A program made the position numbers and the translations under genes. A DNA stretch of 55,257 nucleotides from Bacteroidaceae bacterium. Its GTDB lineage: Bacteria; Bacteroidota; Bacteroidia; Bacteroidales; Bacteroidaceae. The stretch lies in assembly GCA_017448825.1 (NCBI GenBank), contig JAFSKR010000056.1, forward strand, positions 1 to 55,257. The letters are read 5' to 3'. Of this stretch, positions 2,506-55,257 are shown piece by piece. Numbering within the stretch: position 1 is the first letter of the stretch; every line of letters begins with the position of its first letter. The notes beneath the pieces were generated by a model that saw only the letters and a list, made by a program, of their open reading frames with translations, was not told the origin of the DNA and ran no database searches.

Positions 2506-2530
2506 TTTCCCTTTTTTGAGTTTCATGCTG

Positions 2531-2561
2531 CAAAGATACACAAATCGAGCGAAACCGCAAA
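2531..2561 (-). promoter_or_regulatory. Bacteroidetes promoter of the toxin-antitoxin operon
   Basis: On the minus strand a TTTG (2558-2561) is followed after 19 bases by TATCTTTG (2531-2538), matching the Bacteroidetes -33/-7 consensus exactly. The position decides the antitoxin start. Confidence 0.75.
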
Positions 2562-2618
2562 GGAAAAAACATTTTTCTTTGTTCTTTTGTGAGGGAGGTT
2601 GGTTGACACACCCTCCTC

Positions 2619-2717
2619 TACATTTTTTATTTAAGGGTTGGGGCTGAACATCGAAAGTGCCGCATGGTGCTTTCTGAGGGCATTTGCATAGGGTTAAACC
2701 GACGTGCCCCACGTCGG
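2619..2717. repeat. 99-bp direct repeat, copy 2 (right of the toxin-antitoxin pair)
   Basis: Second copy of the element at 1748-1846, offset by 871 bp. It runs into two further imperfect copies of the terminal palindrome. Confidence 0.85.
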
Positions 2718-2763
2718 TCGACCGATGTGGGGCACGTCGGTCAATCGGTGTGGGGCACGTCGG
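2699..2763. repeat. Triple palindromic repeat (CGACGTGGGGCACGTCGG type)
   Basis: Three successive units, each ending in CACGTCGG and containing GTGGGGCAC or its complement, lie just downstream of the alkaline phosphatase stop. They can form stable hairpins and may terminate transcription of the minus-strand phosphatase gene, although no T-run follows immediately. Confidence 0.7.
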
Positions 2764-2787
2764 TTTTGGGGTCAAAAAGAGTCCCGT

Positions 2788-4494
2788 TTAGTGGTTGGCG
2801 ATGTCGATGGCATTGCCCACACAGCTGCTGGGTTGCTGGATGTTGAGCAACGCACAGATGGTGGGGGCGATGTCCACGACATGATAGGTTTGGTTGTCCC
2901 ATGCGTGGCGAACGCCCTTGCCCATCACGATGAAGGGGATGTGGGCATCGTAGGGGCTCCACACAGAGTGGTTGGTGCCGATGGGGATGCCGTCATACTT
3001 AGGCTGATAGCCATCGTCGAAGTCTTCCGTCACGTTTCCTTCCAGGATGATGGCAATGTCACCGCTCCGCTTCGGATTGTAGCCATTGATGACCATCGTC
3101 CGCACTGGCTCGGGCACATAGTCGGGAATCTTCTTCAAATCGAAAGCATACGCCACATTTTCTTTCTCTTCCAGCAGTTCGATGACACGTTCTTTCATCT
3201 TCTCCTTCAATGCCTTCGGATGGCCGTCCCTGCACACCTTCGCGATCACCGTGTCGTTGAAGAACACCTGCTCACACTCCAAGGAGTGAATCACCTTCAC
3301 GGCATCATACTCCACCGTGTTGATTTTCAGTTTCATCTTCGGGTCATCGGTGGTCAGCCCGAACTCCTTCGTCAGTGTCTCGTTCAGTTCTCTCAACACT
3401 TGGTAATATGGCCACGTCTGGGCTGGGATGCCATGCTCGCGGCGGAACTGCACGTTGTGGCTACCTGCATGGTCGGCACTGAGGAATGCTACCCACTCGC
3501 CCTTGCCCACATGCTGGTCGAGCGCATCGAACAGGCGTTTCAGGTCTTGGTCCAGATGCAGATAGGTGTCTTCCACCCACGGCGCGTTGGGACCCACCTT
3601 GTGGCCTATCATGTCGGTGGTGGAGAAGCTGATGGCCAAGAAATCGGTCACTCCCTTGGGGTTATTGCCCAATTGCTCCCCCTCGATGGCGGCAATCGCC
3701 ATGTCGGCGGTGTAGGTGTTGCCATAGGGCGAATACTTCAGGATTGTCCCTGTCCGCTGGTCGTAGTAAGGCTCGTCCAAGCCTCCCGACTGCTCGTAGG
3801 TCTCGGCATCGTACATCAAGTCCCAGAAGTGCTGCTCGTCTTTCTTGTTCTTCGTCGTCTTGTCCAGATACATCCGCCCTAACTTCTTGGCGTTGAAGTC
3901 CCGCACCCACTTGGGCAGTTCCGTCATGTAGTAGGTGGACGAAATCCAGTCCATGCTCTCGCTGTCCATCCAGTAGGCGGCGTTGGCACAGTGTCCGCCC
4001 GGCAAGACAGAGGCGCGGTCCTTGATGCTGACGCTGACCACCTTCGAACGGAAATTGGTGGCCAGCCGCAACTCGTCGCCCATCGTCGTGCAGAGCAGCC
4101 GATGTGGCGAAGCCTGCCCCTCGGTGCGGTCTGTTCCCACGCCCTTCACGCTTCGGTCTCTCACGGGCGTACTCCACTTCCCGTCGAAGTACATGCTGTT
4201 GGCGATGATGCCGCTGAAAGCTGGCACCGTACCCGTATAGACCGCTGTGTGCCCCACCGCCGTCACCGTCGGAACGTAGTTGATGCTGAGCCGGTTACAG
4301 TTGTAACCCTCTGTCATCATGCGCTTGAATCCACCCTCGCAGTAACGGTCGTTATACCTCACCAGATAGTCCCAGCGCATCTGGTCCACCATGATGCCCA
4401 CCACCAGTCGGGGGCGTTGTTGCAACTCCTTTTGTGCACGAAGCACTGGTGTGGCCATACAAAGCGCCACTAAACACATGAAAAACTTTTTCAT
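2788..4494 (-). CDS. Secreted PafA/PhoK-type alkaline phosphatase
   Basis: 568 residues from ATG 4494, which begins a clear signal peptide (MKKFFMCLVALCMATPVLRAQ); upstream in-frame codons would hide it. The mature part has the type I phosphodiesterase/nucleotide pyrophosphatase-like fold signature: the metal-ligand Asp in 'GIMVDQMRWDYL' near residue 37, the nucleophilic Thr region 'YVPTVTAVGHTAVYTG' near 76-78, and 'FLSADHAGSHN' plus a C-terminal 'HIPFIVMGKG' with 'DIAPTICALLNI'. PafA of Flavobacterium and Bacteroidetes hydrolyses phosphomonoesters in the periplasm, often without phosphate repression. No pho box was recognised. Alkaline phosphatase superfamily certain; phosphomonoesterase rather than diesterase likely. 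Confidence 0.88.
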   Translation of the reverse strand: MKKFFMCLVALCMATPVLRAQKELQQRPRLVVGIMVDQMRWDYLVRYNDRYCEGGFKRMMTEGYNCNRLSINYVPTVTAVGHTAVYTGTVPAFSGIIANSMYFDGKWSTPVRDRSVKGVGTDRTEGQASPHRLLCTTMGDELRLATNFRSKVVSVSIKDRASVLPGGHCANAAYWMDSESMDWISSTYYMTELPKWVRDFNAKKLGRMYLDKTTKNKKDEQHFWDLMYDAETYEQSGGLDEPYYDQRTGTILKYSPYGNTYTADMAIAAIEGEQLGNNPKGVTDFLAISFSTTDMIGHKVGPNAPWVEDTYLHLDQDLKRLFDALDQHVGKGEWVAFLSADHAGSHNVQFRREHGIPAQTWPYYQVLRELNETLTKEFGLTTDDPKMKLKINTVEYDAVKVIHSLECEQVFFNDTVIAKVCRDGHPKALKEKMKERVIELLEEKENVAYAFDLKKIPDYVPEPVRTMVINGYNPKRSGDIAIILEGNVTEDFDDGYQPKYDGIPIGTNHSVWSPYDAHIPFIVMGKGVRHAWDNQTYHVVDIAPTICALLNIQQPSSCVGNAIDIANH

Positions 4495-4550: not shown

Positions 4551-5570
4551 TCACAAACGGATTCCAAAGAAGAAACGGGCATACCCTTTCACCTGCCTCG
4601 TGTAGTGGTCGAGATTGCCAAACAGTGTGGAGTTAACCACGAGCGTGGAGCCTACAAAGTATTTGGGATTGATGGTATAGACCACCGCCCCACGGCTGTT
4701 GATAATCATTTCGGGGAAATGATACGACTCCGACCTCTTCTCGCCGTTCATCTCGACACTGTTGCTGTTAAAGATGATGACGTTGGGCTGTGCTGAGAGG
4801 TGGAAGAGCCATCGTTTAGCGACAAGGTTGTAGCCGTAGCCACCACCGATGGCGAAATTGCCCACATAGATTCGTGCCTTCCCCATTTCGGTCGGTGTGT
4901 CGCCTGTCGTTTTGATGCTGCCGCCCTGATAAGAGAAGCCCGCCAACCATGAACCTGCCGAACGCTTCTGGATGTAGGACTGCGTGAAAGCGGCGGGATA
5001 GGAGAAATGGCGATGATTGAACGCATAGTAGCCCGTGACAGACAGCGCCGCCATACGGAGGTAACCCTTGTTCAGATGATACGTTAGGTCATTCTGGGTA
5101 ATGTCGCCTGAAAGCGTCTTGGACAGCTGGTAGCCCGCCTCGATGCCGAATCGGTTGGCGTATGCATTGAGGTTGAACTCCATGTCCTTGTTCCTGCCAC
5201 TCAGACGGGCAGGGTTGATAGCCATACCTGCGGACAATCCCATATAGTTCACGCCTACGCTGAGGGTGGCACGCATGTCGGTTTTGAGCTTGGCACGGAT
5301 GTCGTTTCCATCCACCGTATTTTTGGCATGAATATAATTGCCCGACAGGTTGCCCCTCAACTTCAGCATCAGCCGGCTCTCAGGACGCTTAATATAGAGC
5401 GTGTCGTAAGTCCCCTTCTCATAGTTCTTGCGCAACACGCTGTCAACCTTTTGCCCCGTGACACTCATCCGCTCGCGCATCACCTCACGTCTGCTCTGCG
5501 CAAAAGTCGTGGTCGTGATGGCGAGCATGACCATCACGACCGCCCACATCCTGGCATTTTTCTTTCTCAT
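4551..5570 (-). CDS. DUF4421 outer-membrane protein
   Basis: 339 residues from ATG 5570. A signal peptide (RMWAVVMVMLAITTTTFAQ) precedes 'DTLYIKRPESRLMLKLRGNLSG', a typical opening of the DUF4421 family found in Bacteroidales. The rest alternates short amphipathic segments and turns and ends in '...VKGYARFFFGIRL', consistent with an outer-membrane beta-barrel whose last strand ends in aromatic and basic residues. The start was chosen because the upstream extension lacks a signal sequence and a -7 box lies at 5636-5643. It ends 56 bp before the alkaline phosphatase start, so the two may be cotranscribed. The role is unknown. Confidence 0.82.
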   Translation of the reverse strand: MRKKNARMWAVVMVMLAITTTTFAQSRREVMRERMSVTGQKVDSVLRKNYEKGTYDTLYIKRPESRLMLKLRGNLSGNYIHAKNTVDGNDIRAKLKTDMRATLSVGVNYMGLSAGMAINPARLSGRNKDMEFNLNAYANRFGIEAGYQLSKTLSGDITQNDLTYHLNKGYLRMAALSVTGYYAFNHRHFSYPAAFTQSYIQKRSAGSWLAGFSYQGGSIKTTGDTPTEMGKARIYVGNFAIGGGYGYNLVAKRWLFHLSAQPNVIIFNSNSVEMNGEKRSESYHFPEMIINSRGAVVYTINPKYFVGSTLVVNSTLFGNLDHYTRQVKGYARFFFGIRL

Positions 5571-5635
5571 ATCTTTTAGTTTTTGTTTTTTGTCATTTAG
5601 GGCAATAACCGTCCGTGTTCTGATGAACCAGGGAC

Positions 5636-5643
5636 AAAGGTAC
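5636..5643 (-). promoter_or_regulatory. -7 promoter box for the DUF4421 gene
   Basis: TACCTTTG on the minus strand, about 65 bp upstream of ATG 5570, matches TAnnTTTG. No TTTG is present at the usual -33 spacing, so this is a weaker call. Confidence 0.45.
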
Positions 5644-5744
5644 TCATTTTTCTTGGAACAGACCGATGACAACAAAGGATATGAGCCAAAGAATCTGCCA
5701 GTTTTCCACTTTTTTCACCCAAATTCCACTTTTTTCACACTTTT

Positions 5745-5776
5745 TTTGTTGAATTAAATAAAAAGCTCTATATTTG
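5745..5776 (+). promoter_or_regulatory. Promoter reading into the gene-free 5.8-6.2 kb stretch
   Basis: TTTG (5745-5748), 20-base spacer and TATATTTG (5769-5776) match the Bacteroidetes consensus. Transcription would begin near 5783. The next coding start is about 450 bp away, which supports an RNA gene or a very long leader. Confidence 0.7.
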
Positions 5777-5782
5777 CAACCG

Positions 5783-6165
5783 ACTAAGCCAGTCCCGTCA
5801 ATCGACCTACAATGGTCGAGTACGACAAGACCGGGCGGAGTCGAAATTACATCGATGGAACGAGGCCGAGAACACCATTTGTAAGGACGGTCTTGGGAAA
5901 GGCGTTTACGGGCGTTACTGTTCTGTGTCTTCAAACTTCGCAACTTTGAATCGTATCACAGAGGTAATGCAACGGAACGTCTGCGTGGGTGAATTATATC
6001 CATATTATTGTTATACATATTTTATAATATGTGTATGTACAGTAATAGTAATCGTATATAATCACTTGGCGTGGGCTGGCTGCGTTGCTTATCCTTGATA
6101 CGGGGCAATGCGAAGGCCTGAAGACAGGGATGGGCGGAAGTAGAAAACTCCCCATGCCTTTTTTG
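5783..6165 (+). ncRNA. Candidate structured non-coding RNA, about 380 nt, family not recognised
   Basis: No credible ORF covers this stretch on either strand. From the predicted start, complementary segments nest almost without conflict: a long-range helix 5787-5795 with 6073-6081 (AGCCAGTCC with GGGCTGGCT, one wobble); hairpin 5802-5807/5814-5819; helix 5827-5833/5888-5894 enclosing 5847-5851/5880-5884 and 5855-5858/5875-5878; a rod of 5901-5906/5976-5981, 5912-5918/5964-5970, 5923-5927/5957-5961 and 5930-5935/5945-5950; an AT-rich arm 5989-5999/6056-6065; hairpin 6082-6088/6105-6111; and a final stem with T-run at 6126-6164. I could not match it to tmRNA, RNase P RNA or SRP RNA. A divergent 6S-like RNA or another Bacteroidales RNA family remains possible. 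Structure is seen in the sequence; transcription is inferred. Confidence 0.55.
6126..6164 (+). terminator. Terminator of the candidate ncRNA
   Basis: AGGGATGGG (6126-6134) pairs imperfectly with CCCATGCCT (6151-6159) and is followed by a six-T run through 6164. The loop is 16 bases, so the hairpin is moderate. Confidence 0.5.
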
Positions 6166-6235
6166 TTTCCGCTCACTTAACACAAATTATTCACGCTGAA
6201 TTTGGGAGTTCAGGAGGCGACAGACGCTGAAGCAG

Positions 6236-6742
6236 ATGAGAAGTCTCAGAATTATATCTCTTAGGTTCATGCTATTGGGGCTGCTTGTTCTTTGTGTAAG
6301 CAGCAGACTTCATGCCCAACAAAAAGAAAAAAAACATTATTGGCATGAAATAGGCGTTGGAATTGGAAAGGCTATAGAGTGGCATGGAGGCAATAACACT
6401 GAAACTCATAGCGTGTGTGACTTCCTCTATTTCTGCCATGTTAGCAAGAGCATTAGTATTGGTGGAAGTTTCGGATATTCTCTGCACGATAAAGCGGACG
6501 ATTACAATGATAAAAGTTCGGTCTATATACTTCCTGCTATAAAATGGATGTGGAAAAACGGACATATTATTCGGTTTTACACAAAAGCGGGATTTGGTAT
6601 TAGCCATTTCACACATCAGAGATATAATGAATCAGAATGGGAGCCTGCGATTCAACTTACACCTATAGGCATAGAAATCGGTAAAAAACTTTGTTTTTAT
6701 ACAGAGTTGGGGGGGGGGGTAAAAAAGGAATTGTCAATTTAG
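6236..6742 (+). CDS. Outer-membrane beta-barrel protein, reading frame shifted at an 11-G tract
   Basis: A signal peptide (MLLGLLVLCVSSRLHAQ) is followed by alternating strands typical of a small outer-membrane barrel ('HEIGVGIGKAIEW', 'SISIGGSFGYSLHD', 'FYTKAGFGISHF', 'ELGGG'). The frame as read ends at 6742 just after a run of eleven Gs (6709-6719). With 9 or 12 Gs the protein would continue as 'GIVNLGLTYRFKEKVHH' and stop at 6780, an excellent last barrel strand. The gene is therefore switched off by one base here, by true slippage or by a sequencing error. The family was not recognised. Confidence 0.65.
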   Translation: MRSLRIISLRFMLLGLLVLCVSSRLHAQQKEKKHYWHEIGVGIGKAIEWHGGNNTETHSVCDFLYFCHVSKSISIGGSFGYSLHDKADDYNDKSSVYILPAIKWMWKNGHIIRFYTKAGFGISHFTHQRYNESEWEPAIQLTPIGIEIGKKLCFYTELGGGVKKELSI

Positions 6743-7099: not shown

Positions 7100-7738
7100 A
7101 TGATGGCAATGCTCATGCTTGGTGCAGTTCTTTCTCTCTCATCATGTGGTGATGATTCAGATCCAGATGAAGTATCTGTAAGTATGCCTTCTGTCAATTT
7201 TAGTGAAAACGGCGGATCGCAAGTTGTTCAGATTACCAGTAATACAGGATGGACGGTTAGCGGTGCTCAAAGTTGGTTGACGGTCGCTCCTGTGAGTGGC
7301 TCGAAAAATGGCTCTATTTCTCTTATGGCAAGTGCTAATACAGAGAGTAGCAGTCGTAGTTGTGTCCTGTACGTCAATGCAGGTAGTGCATCGGCTGTTA
7401 TTACGGTGACCCAGTCGGCAGTTTCAGCTCCAACTCGTGTTACAATCACGAATGGTAGTGTTTACACTTTAGAGCGTTTCAGAGTAGTGTTCCTTAATTC
7501 TAGATTCGAGAAGTTAACAGACCGTGATTTTGGAACATTGTCCCCTGGTAGCTCTGTGACTGTTGATATACCAACAGGTGCTACAGAGTATTATATGGCA
7601 ACTTATTCTGGCTCAACTTGGTACTTCTCTCCAAACTATACAGTTGATTACACAACGCTCAATCTTACTACCGATGAGATAGGAAACTGGAGTGCAAATT
7701 CAGCACCAGTAAGAAAGTTGTCGGCGGCAACGGAATAA
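7100..7738 (+). CDS. BACON-domain lipoprotein, natural start lost in an 8-A tract
   Basis: The protein shows a lipobox (LGAVLSLSSCG), an acidic linker and a BACON domain ('VNFSENGGSQVVQITSNTGWTV', 'SWLTVAPVSGS', 'YVNAGSASAVITVTQS'), a beta-sandwich common in Bacteroidetes surface and glycan-binding proteins. A second beta domain of about 100 residues follows. The expected start is the ATG at 7069, but the following eight As (7072-7079) put a TAA four codons in. With seven As the frame would read MKKINFWSIFMMAM and give a normal lipoprotein signal. As it stands, translation could begin only at ATG 7100, without the basic N-region. Binding target unknown. Confidence 0.75.
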   Translation: MMAMLMLGAVLSLSSCGDDSDPDEVSVSMPSVNFSENGGSQVVQITSNTGWTVSGAQSWLTVAPVSGSKNGSISLMASANTESSSRSCVLYVNAGSASAVITVTQSAVSAPTRVTITNGSVYTLERFRVVFLNSRFEKLTDRDFGTLSPGSSVTVDIPTGATEYYMATYSGSTWYFSPNYTVDYTTLNLTTDEIGNWSANSAPVRKLSAATE

Positions 7739-7828: not shown

Positions 7829-10024
7829 ATGGAGATATTAAGGCTTTTTGTTTTGCAAGGGATGTTTATATTGGGATGGATATCTTTGAATGCAGTCCCC
7901 GCATATCCCAAGAAAATTCCAGTGCATGTAGGTGATAGCGTAATCTATATTCGTCTATTTGGTGATGAAAACAGCAAACGAGCAGAGACTTTGGATGGCT
8001 ACACTCTTTTACAGAAGTCCCGGCAGTGGTTTTATGCTGAGAGGGATACGTCAGGATTTTTGGTACCATCAGCTTATGCTTTGTCATGTTCTCCAGATGA
8101 TGACACACAAAAGTTCTTAGATTCAACTCCTCTTCACCTTACATCCAAGTTTGTTGTGTCACCAAAGATACGAGGTCATCAAGTCTCTGTGAATCGTCGT
8201 CAGCCAGCAGTGGGAAATCGTCGGATATTGGTAATTCTCATGCAGTATAAAGATTTGGCGTTCAAAAAAAGGAATGAAGATTTTGAGCATCTTTTTAATC
8301 AGTCTGGTTATACAGAAGATGGTGCACAAGGGAGTGTGTATGATTTTTATGCAGATGTCTCTTATGGACAGTTGCAGTTAGAGAGTGATGTTATTGGTCC
8401 TTTTACAAGTCGATACTCATACAATTTTTATGGGAAGAATGATCGAAATGGTAATGATAGCCAAGCAGAGCGACTTTTTGAAGAAGCTGTAGAATATGCG
8501 GCAACAGAAGTGGCTTTGTCTGATTATGATGCAGATGGTGATGGCTTTGTAGATAATGTGCACATTATTTTTGCGGGGTATGGAGAGGAAGCAGGAGCGA
8601 ATCAAGATGCTATTTGGTCGCATGAGGCAACCTTATATACTCCCTATGAAATACAAGGTATGAAAATAGATCGCTATTCATGTGCACCAGAGTTAAGAGG
8701 GAATTCGGGAACAGGTATCTCTCGTATAGGTCCTCATTGTCATGAGATTGGTCATGCCCTTGGGGCAATGGATTACTACGATACTAATTATTCGTCTGGT
8801 GGTGCGTATGAAGGAACAGGAATGTGGGATGTAATGGCTTCCGGCAGTTGGAATAATGATGGCATTACACCTGCGGATTTTAATCCCTATGTGAAGATGC
8901 ATGACTTTGGATGGATATCACCTCAAGTTTTACCTTCGGGAAATGTTAATTTGCAACCATCATGTGATGATATAGGGAGTTATTACATCTTAGGGGCATC
9001 TGCTTCAGATGAGTATTATTTACTTGAAAATAGAAGCAAAAAGAAGTGGGGCGCGGGTATTCCTGGTGAGGGTCTGCTGATTTTCCATATCCATTCAGAT
9101 GTAGCAAATGTTTGGAATAATATTAATGTTACAGCACCACAGATGTGTTATGTTGTGTGCGCTTCTTCAAAAAGCAGGTATCCCAATAGTTCCACTTCAT
9201 CTTATGGAGAGATTAATTCAGATGGATGTCCTTATCCAGGAAGTTCTGGTAATCGAAATTTTGGGACAAATTCTACCCCAGAAGCATTCTACTGGGATGA
9301 AAAGGAATGTGGAATAGAATTGAATGATATAGTTATGGAAAGCGATGGTGGTATTCTCTTAACCAATAATAGTACGGGGAGTATTTATGAACCCATTGAA
9401 AGGGAGAGAATCTTCTTCGAGGATTTTGAAAGGGATGTAAATGTAAACATTTTGGAGGATGCTTGGACGATAGAAGAAGTTCCAACCGACATGAAAAACT
9501 TTGACAGGTTGTTGGCTTATGATGGCAATAGAAGTCTCCAAATCTCAGCAAGAAAAATAGAAGATGAGGTTCGAGGCTCATTTGAATTTTCTTGTCCTCC
9601 AACGGCTGACCAAGGGAAATATAGAATAAAACTATATATTGCTTCACGTTATATCGCCCAAGGAGATTCAAATGTCATTAAAATTGGTTATAAGAAAGAA
9701 AATGATTTGGAGTGGCGGTATCATGAGGTCTTATCTGAAGAAAATAGCAAATGGAAACAGGCTGTTGTAAGATTACCTGAAAGTGTTCTACCTTACTTCC
9801 GAATAGAAGGTGTAGTTTCAAAGGGGAGTATACTTGGTATAGATAATATCGAAGTAGAGCAGGAAATACCAAAGGAAGATACAAGTATAAACGATGTTCT
9901 TGTCAAAAAAGGGAACGCCCTCTTTTCTGGTATATATACTTTGATGGGACATCCCGTTTCTTCTATTCCACCGATTCATCCATATATATACATAAAAAAT
10001 GGAAAGAAAATATATGTGAAATAG
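7829..10024 (+). CDS. Secreted M6-family metalloprotease with T9SS-like C-terminal tail
   Basis: 731 residues with an N-terminal hydrophobic signal segment and a propeptide-like region. The zinc site 'HCHEIGHALGAMDYYD' (about residues 302-315) is the HExxH motif of the M6 immune inhibitor A-like peptidases; 'GTGMWDVMASGSWN' after it is the characteristic met-turn region. The preceding 'YDADGDGFVDNVHIIFAGYGEE' fits M6 proteins. The end, 'SGIYTLMGHPVS...YIYIKNGKKIYVK', has the layout of Prevotella C-terminal sorting domains (YxLxGxxV ... IYIxNGKKxxVK), suggesting export by the T9SS encoded downstream. Base composition is visibly richer in A and T than in the operons from 10 kb on, a possible sign of transfer. 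Substrate unknown. Confidence 0.88.
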   Translation: MEILRLFVLQGMFILGWISLNAVPAYPKKIPVHVGDSVIYIRLFGDENSKRAETLDGYTLLQKSRQWFYAERDTSGFLVPSAYALSCSPDDDTQKFLDSTPLHLTSKFVVSPKIRGHQVSVNRRQPAVGNRRILVILMQYKDLAFKKRNEDFEHLFNQSGYTEDGAQGSVYDFYADVSYGQLQLESDVIGPFTSRYSYNFYGKNDRNGNDSQAERLFEEAVEYAATEVALSDYDADGDGFVDNVHIIFAGYGEEAGANQDAIWSHEATLYTPYEIQGMKIDRYSCAPELRGNSGTGISRIGPHCHEIGHALGAMDYYDTNYSSGGAYEGTGMWDVMASGSWNNDGITPADFNPYVKMHDFGWISPQVLPSGNVNLQPSCDDIGSYYILGASASDEYYLLENRSKKKWGAGIPGEGLLIFHIHSDVANVWNNINVTAPQMCYVVCASSKSRYPNSSTSSYGEINSDGCPYPGSSGNRNFGTNSTPEAFYWDEKECGIELNDIVMESDGGILLTNNSTGSIYEPIERERIFFEDFERDVNVNILEDAWTIEEVPTDMKNFDRLLAYDGNRSLQISARKIEDEVRGSFEFSCPPTADQGKYRIKLYIASRYIAQGDSNVIKIGYKKENDLEWRYHEVLSEENSKWKQAVVRLPESVLPYFRIEGVVSKGSILGIDNIEVEQEIPKEDTSINDVLVKKGNALFSGIYTLMGHPVSSIPPIHPYIYIKNGKKIYVK

Positions 10025-51574: not shown

Positions 51575-52183
51575 ATGACACAAACTAACCCTCTTGACGG
51601 AACGTTTCAATTGGTAGAACTTCCGTATGCAGCCGATGCATTAGAACCAGTCATCAGCAAAGAAACCATCAGTTTCCATCACGGGAAACACTTGCAGACC
51701 TACGTGAATAACCTCAACACGCTATTGCCAGGCAGTCCTTACGAAGGACGTTCGTTAGAAGAAATTGTCTGCAAAAGTGACGGTGGAATCTTCAACAATG
51801 CAGGTCAAATTCTCAACCATAACCTCTATTTCACTCAGTTTACAGCACCAGAAGAAAACAACAAACCTGTAGGGAATTTGGCTGTCGCCATCGAACAACA
51901 ATTTGGCTCTTTCGAGGCATTCAAAGAAGAATTTGAGAAAAAGGGTAGTACTCTATTTGGGTCTGGCTGGGTTTGGTTAGCTGCCGACCAAGATGGTAAA
52001 CTACACATCACGCAAGAAGCCAATGCCAACAACCCCATCACCAAAGGACTCACGCCTCTACTCACGTTTGATGTGTGGGAACATGCCTATTATTTGGACT
52101 ACCAAAACCGCCGACCTGTCCATCTCTCCAATTTATGGAGTATCGTGAACTGGGCAGCGATTGACAAACGATACATGAAGTGA
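51575..52183 (+). CDS. sodB: Iron/manganese superoxide dismutase
   Basis: 202 residues. Metal ligands lie in 'ISFHHGKHLQTYVNNLN', 'NNAGQILNHNLYFTQF', and 'LLTFDVWEHAYYLDYQNRRPVHL' (Asp and His). The Gln before 'ILNH' is where iron-type enzymes carry it, so an Fe or cambialistic enzyme, as known from Porphyromonas and Bacteroides, is likely. It detoxifies superoxide in the cytoplasm of this presumably anaerobic organism. Monocistronic, with its own promoter and terminator. Confidence 0.95.
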   Translation: MTQTNPLDGTFQLVELPYAADALEPVISKETISFHHGKHLQTYVNNLNTLLPGSPYEGRSLEEIVCKSDGGIFNNAGQILNHNLYFTQFTAPEENNKPVGNLAVAIEQQFGSFEAFKEEFEKKGSTLFGSGWVWLAADQDGKLHITQEANANNPITKGLTPLLTFDVWEHAYYLDYQNRRPVHLSNLWSIVNWAAIDKRYMK

Positions 52184-52195
52184 CATCGTCAATAG

Positions 52196-52238
52196 AAAGA
52201 AGGGGATAGCCTGATAGTGTCAGGCTATCCCCTTCTTT
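52196..52238. terminator. Strong bidirectional terminator after sodB
   Basis: A 19-bp perfect stem: AAAGAAGGGGATAGCCTGA (52196-52214) with its complement ending in TTCTTT (52220-52238), five-base loop. The stem overlaps the stop codon and last codons of the convergent minus-strand gene. Confidence 0.88.
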
Positions 52239-52644
52239 CTCCTATAATCAAAAAAATCTCATCCTTCAGTTCGTCGGGAATTTCAACAGCACGAAGTTGG
52301 AGTGAGCGAACCCAACCAGCCACTTCTTCTTCCCTCATCGTATAAAGAACTTCACGAAATTCTTCGATTTCATCGGGCAAATAAGCACTACTGCCCTTGC
52401 CACGGAAACGGTCAAGTTCTTCATCATTGTAGTACTCTATCTGTTTGCTCACAGCGGCAAGCAGACTTTCCTTCTCGCAGGTTTCATGCTGACCACAACA
52501 TTCCATATCTTCCACCTGCTGAATGTTGGGTAATTCTACGATTTCACCTCTTGCCAACAACTTCTTCAATTTCTTCTCACGAAAGAAGCCTGCCAAGAAA
52601 GCAATGATGCCCAATATAAGGAGTCCAATAATTAGGTATATCAT
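52225..52644 (-). CDS. Small membrane-anchored protein upstream of sodB, conserved next to aroA
   Basis: 139 residues. One N-terminal helix (MIYLIIGLLILGIIAFLAGF), a basic stretch, 'ECCGQHETCEKESLLAAV' with three Cys and a His that could bind metal, and a helical acidic C-terminal half. Its last codons (IIGERRG) come from the terminator stem. It lies 21 bp behind aroA on the same strand, so they are probably cotranscribed. I recall similar Bacteroidales proteins loosely labelled phospholipase, but see no support for that activity. Confidence 0.7.
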   Translation of the reverse strand: MIYLIIGLLILGIIAFLAGFFREKKLKKLLARGEIVELPNIQQVEDMECCGQHETCEKESLLAAVSKQIEYYNDEELDRFRGKGSSAYLPDEIEEFREVLYTMREEEVAGWVRSLQLRAVEIPDELKDEIFLIIGERRG

Positions 52645-55161: not shown

Positions 55162-55167
55162 CCTCAA

Positions 55168-55257
55168 GAAGGCGGCGACCTACTCTCCCGCATTGCGGTG
55201 CAGTACCATCGGCGCGCCCGGGCTTAACTTCTCTGTTCGGGATGGGAAGAGGTGGAA
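55168..55257 (-). rRNA. rrf: 5S ribosomal RNA, 3' part
   Basis: The reverse complement reads CCACCTCTTCCCATCCCGAA, then CAGAGAAGTTAAGCCCG, CGCCGATGGTACTGC and GGGAGAGTAGGTCGCCGCC, the conserved 5S sequence. The 5' end lies beyond the window; the 3' end is placed near 55168 from the closing stem. Confidence 0.95.

Follow-up and report, generated by a model that had tools for sequence, protein, structure and literature searches.

Transcription attenuators and terminator/antiterminator riboswitches share a common architecture, in which a structured 5′ leader holds mutually exclusive helices, one stem is followed by a run of U's, and a gene lies close behind. In CopA/CopT plasmid copy control, complementary stem-loops progress from loop kissing to a full duplex, and 6S RNA is a single housekeeping gene that is not tied to a downstream start codon. 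Little has been mapped, to our knowledge, of how the Bacteroidales, a dominant order in gut and rumen, regulate their genes once transcription has begun. A 2010 survey reported Bacteroidales-1 and other Bacteroidetes motifs as structured RNAs of this same group (PMC2864571), and the HMP-PP (thiS) riboswitch has been presented as a terminator-embedded, unusually small aptamer (PMC6478431). The RNA that we compare with these systems lies at positions 5782-6164 on the plus strand of a stretch of 55,257 nucleotides of Bacteroidaceae DNA (GCA_017448825.1, contig JAFSKR010000056.1; the whole stretch is hereafter the window), and is one copy of an RNA family of ~380 letters that is absent from Rfam.

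The RNA occupies the stretch between a minus-strand DUF4421 gene and an ORF at 6236. Its promoter and outline, with both ends inferred, are the following:

5745..5748, plus strand: TTTG, the -33 element, read from the sequence.
5769..5776, plus strand: TATATTTG, the -7 element, read from the sequence and matched by a family-wide enrichment of the box.
5782..6164, plus strand: the RNA as far as its U-run, placed from the promoter, the matches to models R2 and R1 (below) and the U-run.

TTTG and TATATTTG, spaced by 20 nt, form what we take to be a Bacteroidota-type promoter, and transcription would start near 5782. Of 126 family loci, 110 have a TAnnTTTG box no more than 220 nt 5′ of the upstream domain, where mononucleotide shuffles would give 13.3, and 69 of the 126 carry a TTG or TTTG at 17-23 nt in addition to it. 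A first-pass annotation of this DNA had proposed that an RNA of no recognised family, highly structured and driven by its own promoter, lies here, a proposal borne out by the promoter sequence, by the z-scores of the fold and by the negative Rfam search described below. That annotation regarded the locus as a free RNA gene and had not linked the RNA to the ORF that begins 72 nt downstream of the U-run.

On the plus strand the locus folds with z = -7.04 and on the minus strand with z = -4.94, 0 of 100 shuffles being as stable in either case. When 918 segments of 380 nt, taken from both strands, were ranked by MFE regressed on GC, the best segment over the locus (5761-6140, plus strand) came 3rd and 5783-6162 (plus strand) came 5th; two segments over 2521-3020 ranked above the former, and 52081-52460 (minus strand) stood 4th, between the two. 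The earlier claim that complementarity here is far above that of the other spacers was overstated as far as energy is concerned, because the locus ranks only 3rd and 5th, but the locus is the more elaborate: the places that outrank it or interleave with it (2521-3020 and 52081-52460) hold simpler inverted repeats. One of them, an intergenic inverted repeat at 2696-2766 whose arms measure 34 nt (85%) and 22 nt (95%), is the most stable fold of the window and also contains three 23-nt repeats (ACCGACGTG..CACGTCGGT). Another, at 52194-52240, is a perfect 21-bp inverted repeat with a 5-nt gap, located between genes, and is probably a terminator.

At gathering scores, the Rfam scan of the window returned only the 5S rRNA at 55167-55257, and at E <= 5 the region 5560-6260 gave only two eukaryotic snoRNA matches on the opposite strand (E 4.4 and 4.6), which lie far below cut-offs and are taken as chance. 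None of the families against which the first-pass annotation had advised a check (6S, Bacteroidales-1, RNase P and tmRNA) gave a match at the locus in these Rfam scans. The RNA is not RNase P RNA (RF00010), for which the genome has its own gene elsewhere (C31:19173-19624, 201.8 bits). There is no support for a tmRNA (RF00023), with none in the window by covariance model or ARAGORN and only 4 matches, all below cut-off, in a search of the own genome. Nor is there any for 6S RNA (RF00013, RF01685), for which neither the window nor the region 5560-6260 gave a covariance match; a 6S-Flavo search of the own genome was likewise without a match, but its controls were silent too, and hence it is uninformative. 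A literature search, with most subscription papers, preprints and supplements outside its reach, found no publication naming this RNA; a fragment of the family may stand among the thousands of candidates in PMC8040213.

With the window's DNA as the query, 34 of 150 relatives gave a match. An alignment of 27 copies was used to build a covariance model of the 3′ half (R1), and 21 of these 27 first loci a model of the upstream half (R2). In the window, the parts of the RNA fall as follows:

5897..5999, plus strand: upstream half, matched by covariance model R2.
5988..6066, plus strand: AU-rich arm capping the rod (described below), from the MFE fold; its length varies between loci.
6066..6162, plus strand: downstream half, matched by model R1 at 94.6 bits.

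R1 finds three copies in the window's own genome, matches 75 of the 150 relatives, a single genome having as many as 17 copies, and across the order Bacteroidales matches 61 of 295 genomes and 40 of 184 genera. A search of 296 genomes sampled from the whole phylum, which could miss distant members, returned the window's own genome alone. A DNA pattern scan of named genome contigs yielded at least 118 stretches whose record titles are overwhelmingly Bacteroidales, with Prevotella, Bacteroides and Muribaculaceae among the contig titles of the matches listed. R2 matches all 27 of the first loci (21 of them used in building it) and 99 of 100 further loci selected by R1 alone, L088 being the miss; these 99 comprise 98 distinct sequences. 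Of the 80 genome-contig loci listed from the pattern scan, R1 matches 80, partly by construction, and R2 matches 75; judged from their coordinates, three of the R2 misses (L163, L212 and L230) have insufficient upstream room, whereas L184 and L238 do have it. Both halves are present in the named isolates Xylanibacter rarus 109 (L190), Bacteroides bouchesdurhonensis (L166) and B. caecigallinarum (L228). The gap from R2 to R1 ranges from 0 to 109 nt (median 58). The two separately modelled halves co-occur and form one RNA, and the AT-rich side arm that the first reading had drawn by eye is present in the MFE fold.

Some details of the distribution stand apart. Three contigs labelled Firmicutes, Clostridia and Lachnospiraceae (L201, L220 and L234) carry the RNA; mis-binning is likely, because these contigs are short (3-9 kb) and come from metagenome assemblies, and transfer is possible. 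Two IMG/VR contigs contain the pattern, L281 being a family member and L282 matching neither model. In several fragmented genomes, e.g. G106, G452, G555 and G461, many weaker matches of ~80 nt lie a few hundred bases from contig ends, perhaps as a subtype repeated many times. Among the 100 copies L063-L162, 14 lie less than 900 nt from a contig end, where 5.6 would be expected, and for 10 of these it is the upstream end that is near; such assembly breaks near leaders may reflect repeats or population variation.

When downstream ORFs are taken as those on the same strand that begin with ATG and have at least 60 codons, 105 of 125 loci have one starting 40-100 nt after the RNA, and the distances peak sharply at 70-75 nt; of 2540 random positions, 18.4% have an ORF so placed. 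This is the conserved position directly upstream of a start codon that a cis-acting leader requires, and the RNA likewise has the stem and subsequent U-run that a terminator/antiterminator leader requires (the stem, T, covaries, and 124 of 127 loci are U-rich). The first ORFs, chosen by a simple rule that is wrong in some loci, fall into 66 Pfam families among 122, the commonest being BspA-type LRR (11), with AbiH, HSP70 (2/122) and DUF2971 also represented. The RNA might still be a metabolite riboswitch, but its downstream genes share no pathway, and the common metabolic theme expected of such a sensor was not found among the 122 first ORFs. A hydrophobic N-terminus is present in 61 of 105 first ORFs and a lipobox-like site in 25, both being counts without a computed background. 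In the window, the genes that follow are these:

6236..6742, plus strand: first gene, a 168-aa protein with a hydrophobic N-terminus and a weak OMP_b-brl match.
7100..7738, plus strand: second gene, a BACON-domain lipoprotein-like protein, from the ORF list and Pfam.
7829..10024, plus strand: third gene, a secreted M6-type metallopeptidase, from the ORF list and Pfam.

The OMP_b-brl match of the first product (Pfam E 0.0079) is below the curated cut-off, and the product is possibly an outer-membrane protein. At locus L003 the second gene is also M6-like, by N-terminal similarity read by eye, and the other two copies in the window's own genome precede small ORFs and then secreted-type proteins with Ig-like/LRR and BspA LRR repeats. 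Judged by eye, the first ORF is a similar small helix-turn-helix-like regulator at six loci (L071, L078, L092, L134, L147 and L156). The leaders L008 and L014 precede tandem short proteins with a common RRDFFKK..ALP N-terminus and Cys-rich tails, which resemble peptide precursors, and the copy at 391-633 of the IMG/VR contig L281 stands before the gene of an EF-Tu-like GTPase, which is followed two genes later by an HSP70-like gene. Control by a uORF is unlikely, as no ATG is conserved by eye.

Copy number and position also bear on the suggestion, made in the first-pass annotation, that this could be a divergent 6S RNA. A long rod, as one state of the RNA would form (below), is what such an identity would lead one to expect, but Rfam gives no 6S match, three copies sit in the own genome and up to 17 in a relative, the RNA keeps the position and start-codon spacing of a leader, and one of its helices extends past the U-run. 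We find a 6S identity scarcely credible.

Pairing was assessed by an all-pairs scan, in which the native duplex energies of 231 region pairs in 99 loci were compared with those of swaps inside 20 similarity clusters; relatedness is partly controlled in this way, the largest of the 20 clusters holding 39 of the 99 loci. Seven pairs fell at z < -4 and none above +4. The two strongest of the 231 are K1 (z -20.9) and K2 (z -18.1), each of which links a variable stretch of the upstream half with a variable stretch of the downstream one, and in the MFE fold of the window K1, K3, K2, AT2 and AT1 make one nested rod, capped by the AU-rich arm:

5922-5933:6119-6130, plus strand: rod helix with K1.
5936-5942:6109-6115, plus strand: rod helix K3, CUUCGCA:UGCGAAG.
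5951-5976:6081-6103, plus strand: rod helix with K2 and AT2.
5978-5986:6069-6078, plus strand: AT1, which competes with stem T.

K1 and K2 are each paired in 98 of 99 loci, with 87 and 92 distinct 5′ strands, respectively, as delimited by the program. K3 (z -4.6; E <= -4 in 98 of 99 loci) takes the forms UUCGCA:UGCGAA, CUCGCA:UGCGAG, CUGGCA:UGCCAG, CUGGUA:UACCAG and CUAGCA:UGCUAG across the family, and UUCGCAA, once considered as a hairpin loop, was rejected as such, pairing with the core as K3. AT2 (z -3.6) is the alternative pairing 5969-5974:6082-6088 that the earlier reading had pointed out, now placed by within-cluster swaps and the scan as part of the conserved rod. The idea of an upstream antiterminator made of AT1/AT2 as the whole switch had to be widened, K1 and K2 being far stronger in the scan. 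Neither the K helices nor AT, P and C0 (the last two described below) belonged to any covariance model.

The pairing is also specific to each copy. When copies from the same genome are compared, the native partner is the best in 73 of 75 cases for K1 and 68 of 75 for K2, and the whole rod stands at -58.5 kcal/mol with native strands against -37.0 with strands of the same genome's other copies (99 and 190 pairings). K1 and K2 change fast yet remain fully complementary and self-specific, which suggests that they drift neutrally through compensatory changes or that selection disfavours pairing between copies. Strong support for the rod extends to K1, K3, K2 and AT2; AT1 is supported in one test, native strands beating within-cluster swaps (0/2000), but not in two others, as it is paired in 91.6% against 91.2% in shuffles and does not figure among the 24 top-ranking region pairs. 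Of all the rod's helices, AT1, where the rod directly encounters T, is the weakest.

A second set of helices, unable or hardly able to coexist with the rod, also covaries:

5901-5906:5976-5981, plus strand: A1, from covariation.
5922-5927:5957-5962, plus strand: A2, overlapping K1, from covariation and partly in the model.
6088-6094:6128-6134, plus strand: b, 5′ strand CUUAUCC, from covariation and part of R1.
6068-6075:6151-6158, plus strand: T, an 8-bp stem with 5′ arm GGCGUGGG, from covariation and part of R1.
6159..6164, plus strand: U-run directly after the 3′ arm of T, from the sequence.

Counted in 98 loci and compared with shuffles, on alignments that were fitted to A1, part of A2, b and T and so favour those helices, the cells in which both sides change number 58 for A1 (17.7 in shuffles), 108 for A2 (36.5), 93 for b (27.5) and 21 for T (5.9). 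In the 231-pair scan the same helices reach z -5.1, -3.6, -6.4 and -5.4, respectively. Much of what the first-pass annotation had drawn by eye survives: the rod described at 5901-5981 contains A1 and A2, both covarying; the alternative folds it allowed for are real in that rod and competing helices both covary in the scan; and its own refutation test, run on the homologous spacers, found the paired bases preserved across the family. Its final stem, which we take to be the local helix 6127-6134:6151-6158, did not survive, as this helix is not among the 24 best of the 231 region pairs, and the conserved stem before the U-run is 6068-6075:6151-6158 instead. In 124 of 127 loci, the 10 nt surrounding the core's end contain at least six T's. 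Because T closes ~75 nt, it is missing from the output of a short-loop terminator scan. By pseudoknot-free energies, the AT/rod state beats T in 91 of 99 loci, by a median of 11.4 kcal/mol.

Could the locus act as DNA, as a recombination site, a cruciform, an insertion-prone site or the end of a mobile element? The many copies per genome would agree with this, as would the excess of nearby contig ends (14 of 100 within 900 nt, 5.6 expected), but a promoter, a U-run and a fixed distance to a start codon do not, and G-U pairs are common in the covarying helices, as RNA would show. A search of phage and plasmid records also returned no near match for the window copy, and we judge a DNA-level role very improbable.

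There are two further long-range helices, P with its partner hairpin and C0:

6146-6152:6204-6210, plus strand: P, 5′ strand AACUCCC, overlapping the 3′ arm of T, from complementarity; in neither model.
6195..6218, plus strand: hairpin beyond the U-run; its loop GGGAGUU (6204-6210) supplies the 3′ strand of P, from complementarity.
5787-5795:6073-6081, plus strand: C0, 5′ strand AGCCAGUCC, from the swap test and the 231-pair scan.

P crosses the U-run, joining the region of the T 3′ arm to the hairpin just before the start codon. Of 127 loci, 51 have a pairing score of at least 18 for P, compared with 6.8% of swaps and 1.8% of shuffles, and two control segments are flat; in the 231-pair scan P reaches z -8.3, and the native partner is the best among same-genome copies in 53 of 75 cases. 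One locus, L005, is without it. C0 is the long-range closing helix of the first-pass annotation, and is probably real: native strands give -11.31 kcal/mol against -10.52 for within-cluster swaps (0/2000), and its halves reach z -3.6 and -2.4 in the 231-pair scan. Support from these two sources is moderate because a negative control sharing its 5′ strand rang (4/2000). This intended control, the 5′ end against U105-120, was also significant within the 20 clusters (5/2000), and the control of core 60-75 against the post-terminator region gave 46/2000 within 20 clusters; the other controls were flat. Amongst the minor helices, the local hairpin h0 was set aside when its significance was lost within 20 clusters (335/2000), and helix a is marginal (75/2000 within-cluster swaps). 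The 231-pair scan also holds weaker, unplaced pairs, e.g. C67-73 with C109-114 (z -3.2).

An RNA with its own promoter, a U-rich end and a large, ornate fold might be a free-standing ncRNA, finishing at the U-run and active in trans, with the downstream gene as a neighbour or a target. The spacing to the start codon is, however, tight (105 of 125 loci), helix P extends past the U-run, 66 Pfam families in 122 first ORFs offer no common target theme, and the strands of each copy fit one another rather than those of the genome's other copies. We consider a trans-acting RNA unlikely.

For a family with this position, two covarying sets of helices, a U-run and self-specific pairing, we lean, by a modest degree, towards a bistable cis-acting leader that sets termination against read-through of the downstream operon. 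Such a leader would be transcribed from its own promoter and adopt either of two conserved folds. During synthesis, folding could begin in the upstream half (A1 and A2) and then proceed to the downstream half (b and T). In this two-hairpin (F) state each half would be folded on itself, with A1 and A2 in one and b and T in the other, and T would form before the U-run; were it to form in time, transcription would end at the U-run, before the gene. In the rod (R) state, most of the upstream half would be paired with the downstream half through K1, K3, K2, AT2 and AT1, occupying the 5′ arm of T; were the halves to zip into the rod first, T would be lost and the gene read, making R the presumed 'on' state. 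In the read-through RNA, the freed 3′ arm of T could pair with the loop upstream of the start codon, forming P and affecting the start region. The balance of R and F, perhaps through folding kinetics or a bound factor, for which the Bacteroides RNA-binding protein RbpB would be one candidate, would then decide the output of the downstream operon. P needs this second role because a partner downstream of the U-run cannot influence termination there, and the F state would need kinetic trapping or a ligand because the energies favour R.

T is also unlike a textbook terminator in that it encloses ~75 nt. Might the same bistable leader act on translation, with a T/P switch changing how accessible the start codon is, some 20-30 nt past the P hairpin, and the U-run always transcribed through? 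P, which covaries, connects the switch with the stretch just ahead of the start codon, and a stem that closes a large structured loop departs from common terminators; a U-rich tail after the stem in 124 of 127 loci would, however, be needless for a purely translational switch. We regard control of translation alone as rather doubtful.

Within the reading that we favour, termination against read-through, we tentatively raise the possibility of a folding-timer switch, in which complementary stem-loops form, kiss with K3 in the middle, and zip into the rod, thereby removing the terminator stem. With loops that pair solely with the partner inside their own copy, a genome could run 17 or more such switches independently. 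If this were true, copies could serve surface, secreted and defence-type genes without a copy-specific protein or metabolite, as a ligand-free, modular RNA control layer of the Bacteroidales. A recurrent leader before BspA-type surface proteins, a secreted peptidase operon and the defence-type genes AbiH and DUF2971 would in itself expose a shared control layer. The RNA is also an unusually clear natural case in which both alternative folds of one RNA leave covariation, so that the two-state idea is directly testable by probing and compensatory mutation, and its orthogonal pairing segments could become parts for engineering commensals.

How, then, does this RNA stand beside the systems already described? 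Like attenuators and riboswitches, it has a leader with helices that would exclude one another, a stem with U's and a nearby gene; unlike them, its alternative fold is a rod made of both halves, with fast-varying, self-specific segments, the leader is unusually long, and the downstream genes are very diverse, with no ligand theme. With the HMP-PP riboswitch (PMC6478431) it shares a folded domain inside the stem preceding the U-run; here, the stem encloses ~75 nt, for which a second half of ~100 nt competes, the genes are other ones, and there is no sequence match in Rfam. As for the motifs of the 2010 survey (PMC2864571), those held in Rfam were scanned and none matched the window RNA. The R state recalls the long rod-like hairpin of 6S RNA (RF00013, RF01685), from which the window RNA differs in lacking a covariance match, in being multicopy and in its leader position. 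A likeness in pairing behaviour may be drawn with CopA/CopT, as here too two hairpins have complementary loops, diversified such that each pairs with its own partner; unlike CopA/CopT, both partners reside in one transcript, joined by an AU-rich arm and placed before a gene.
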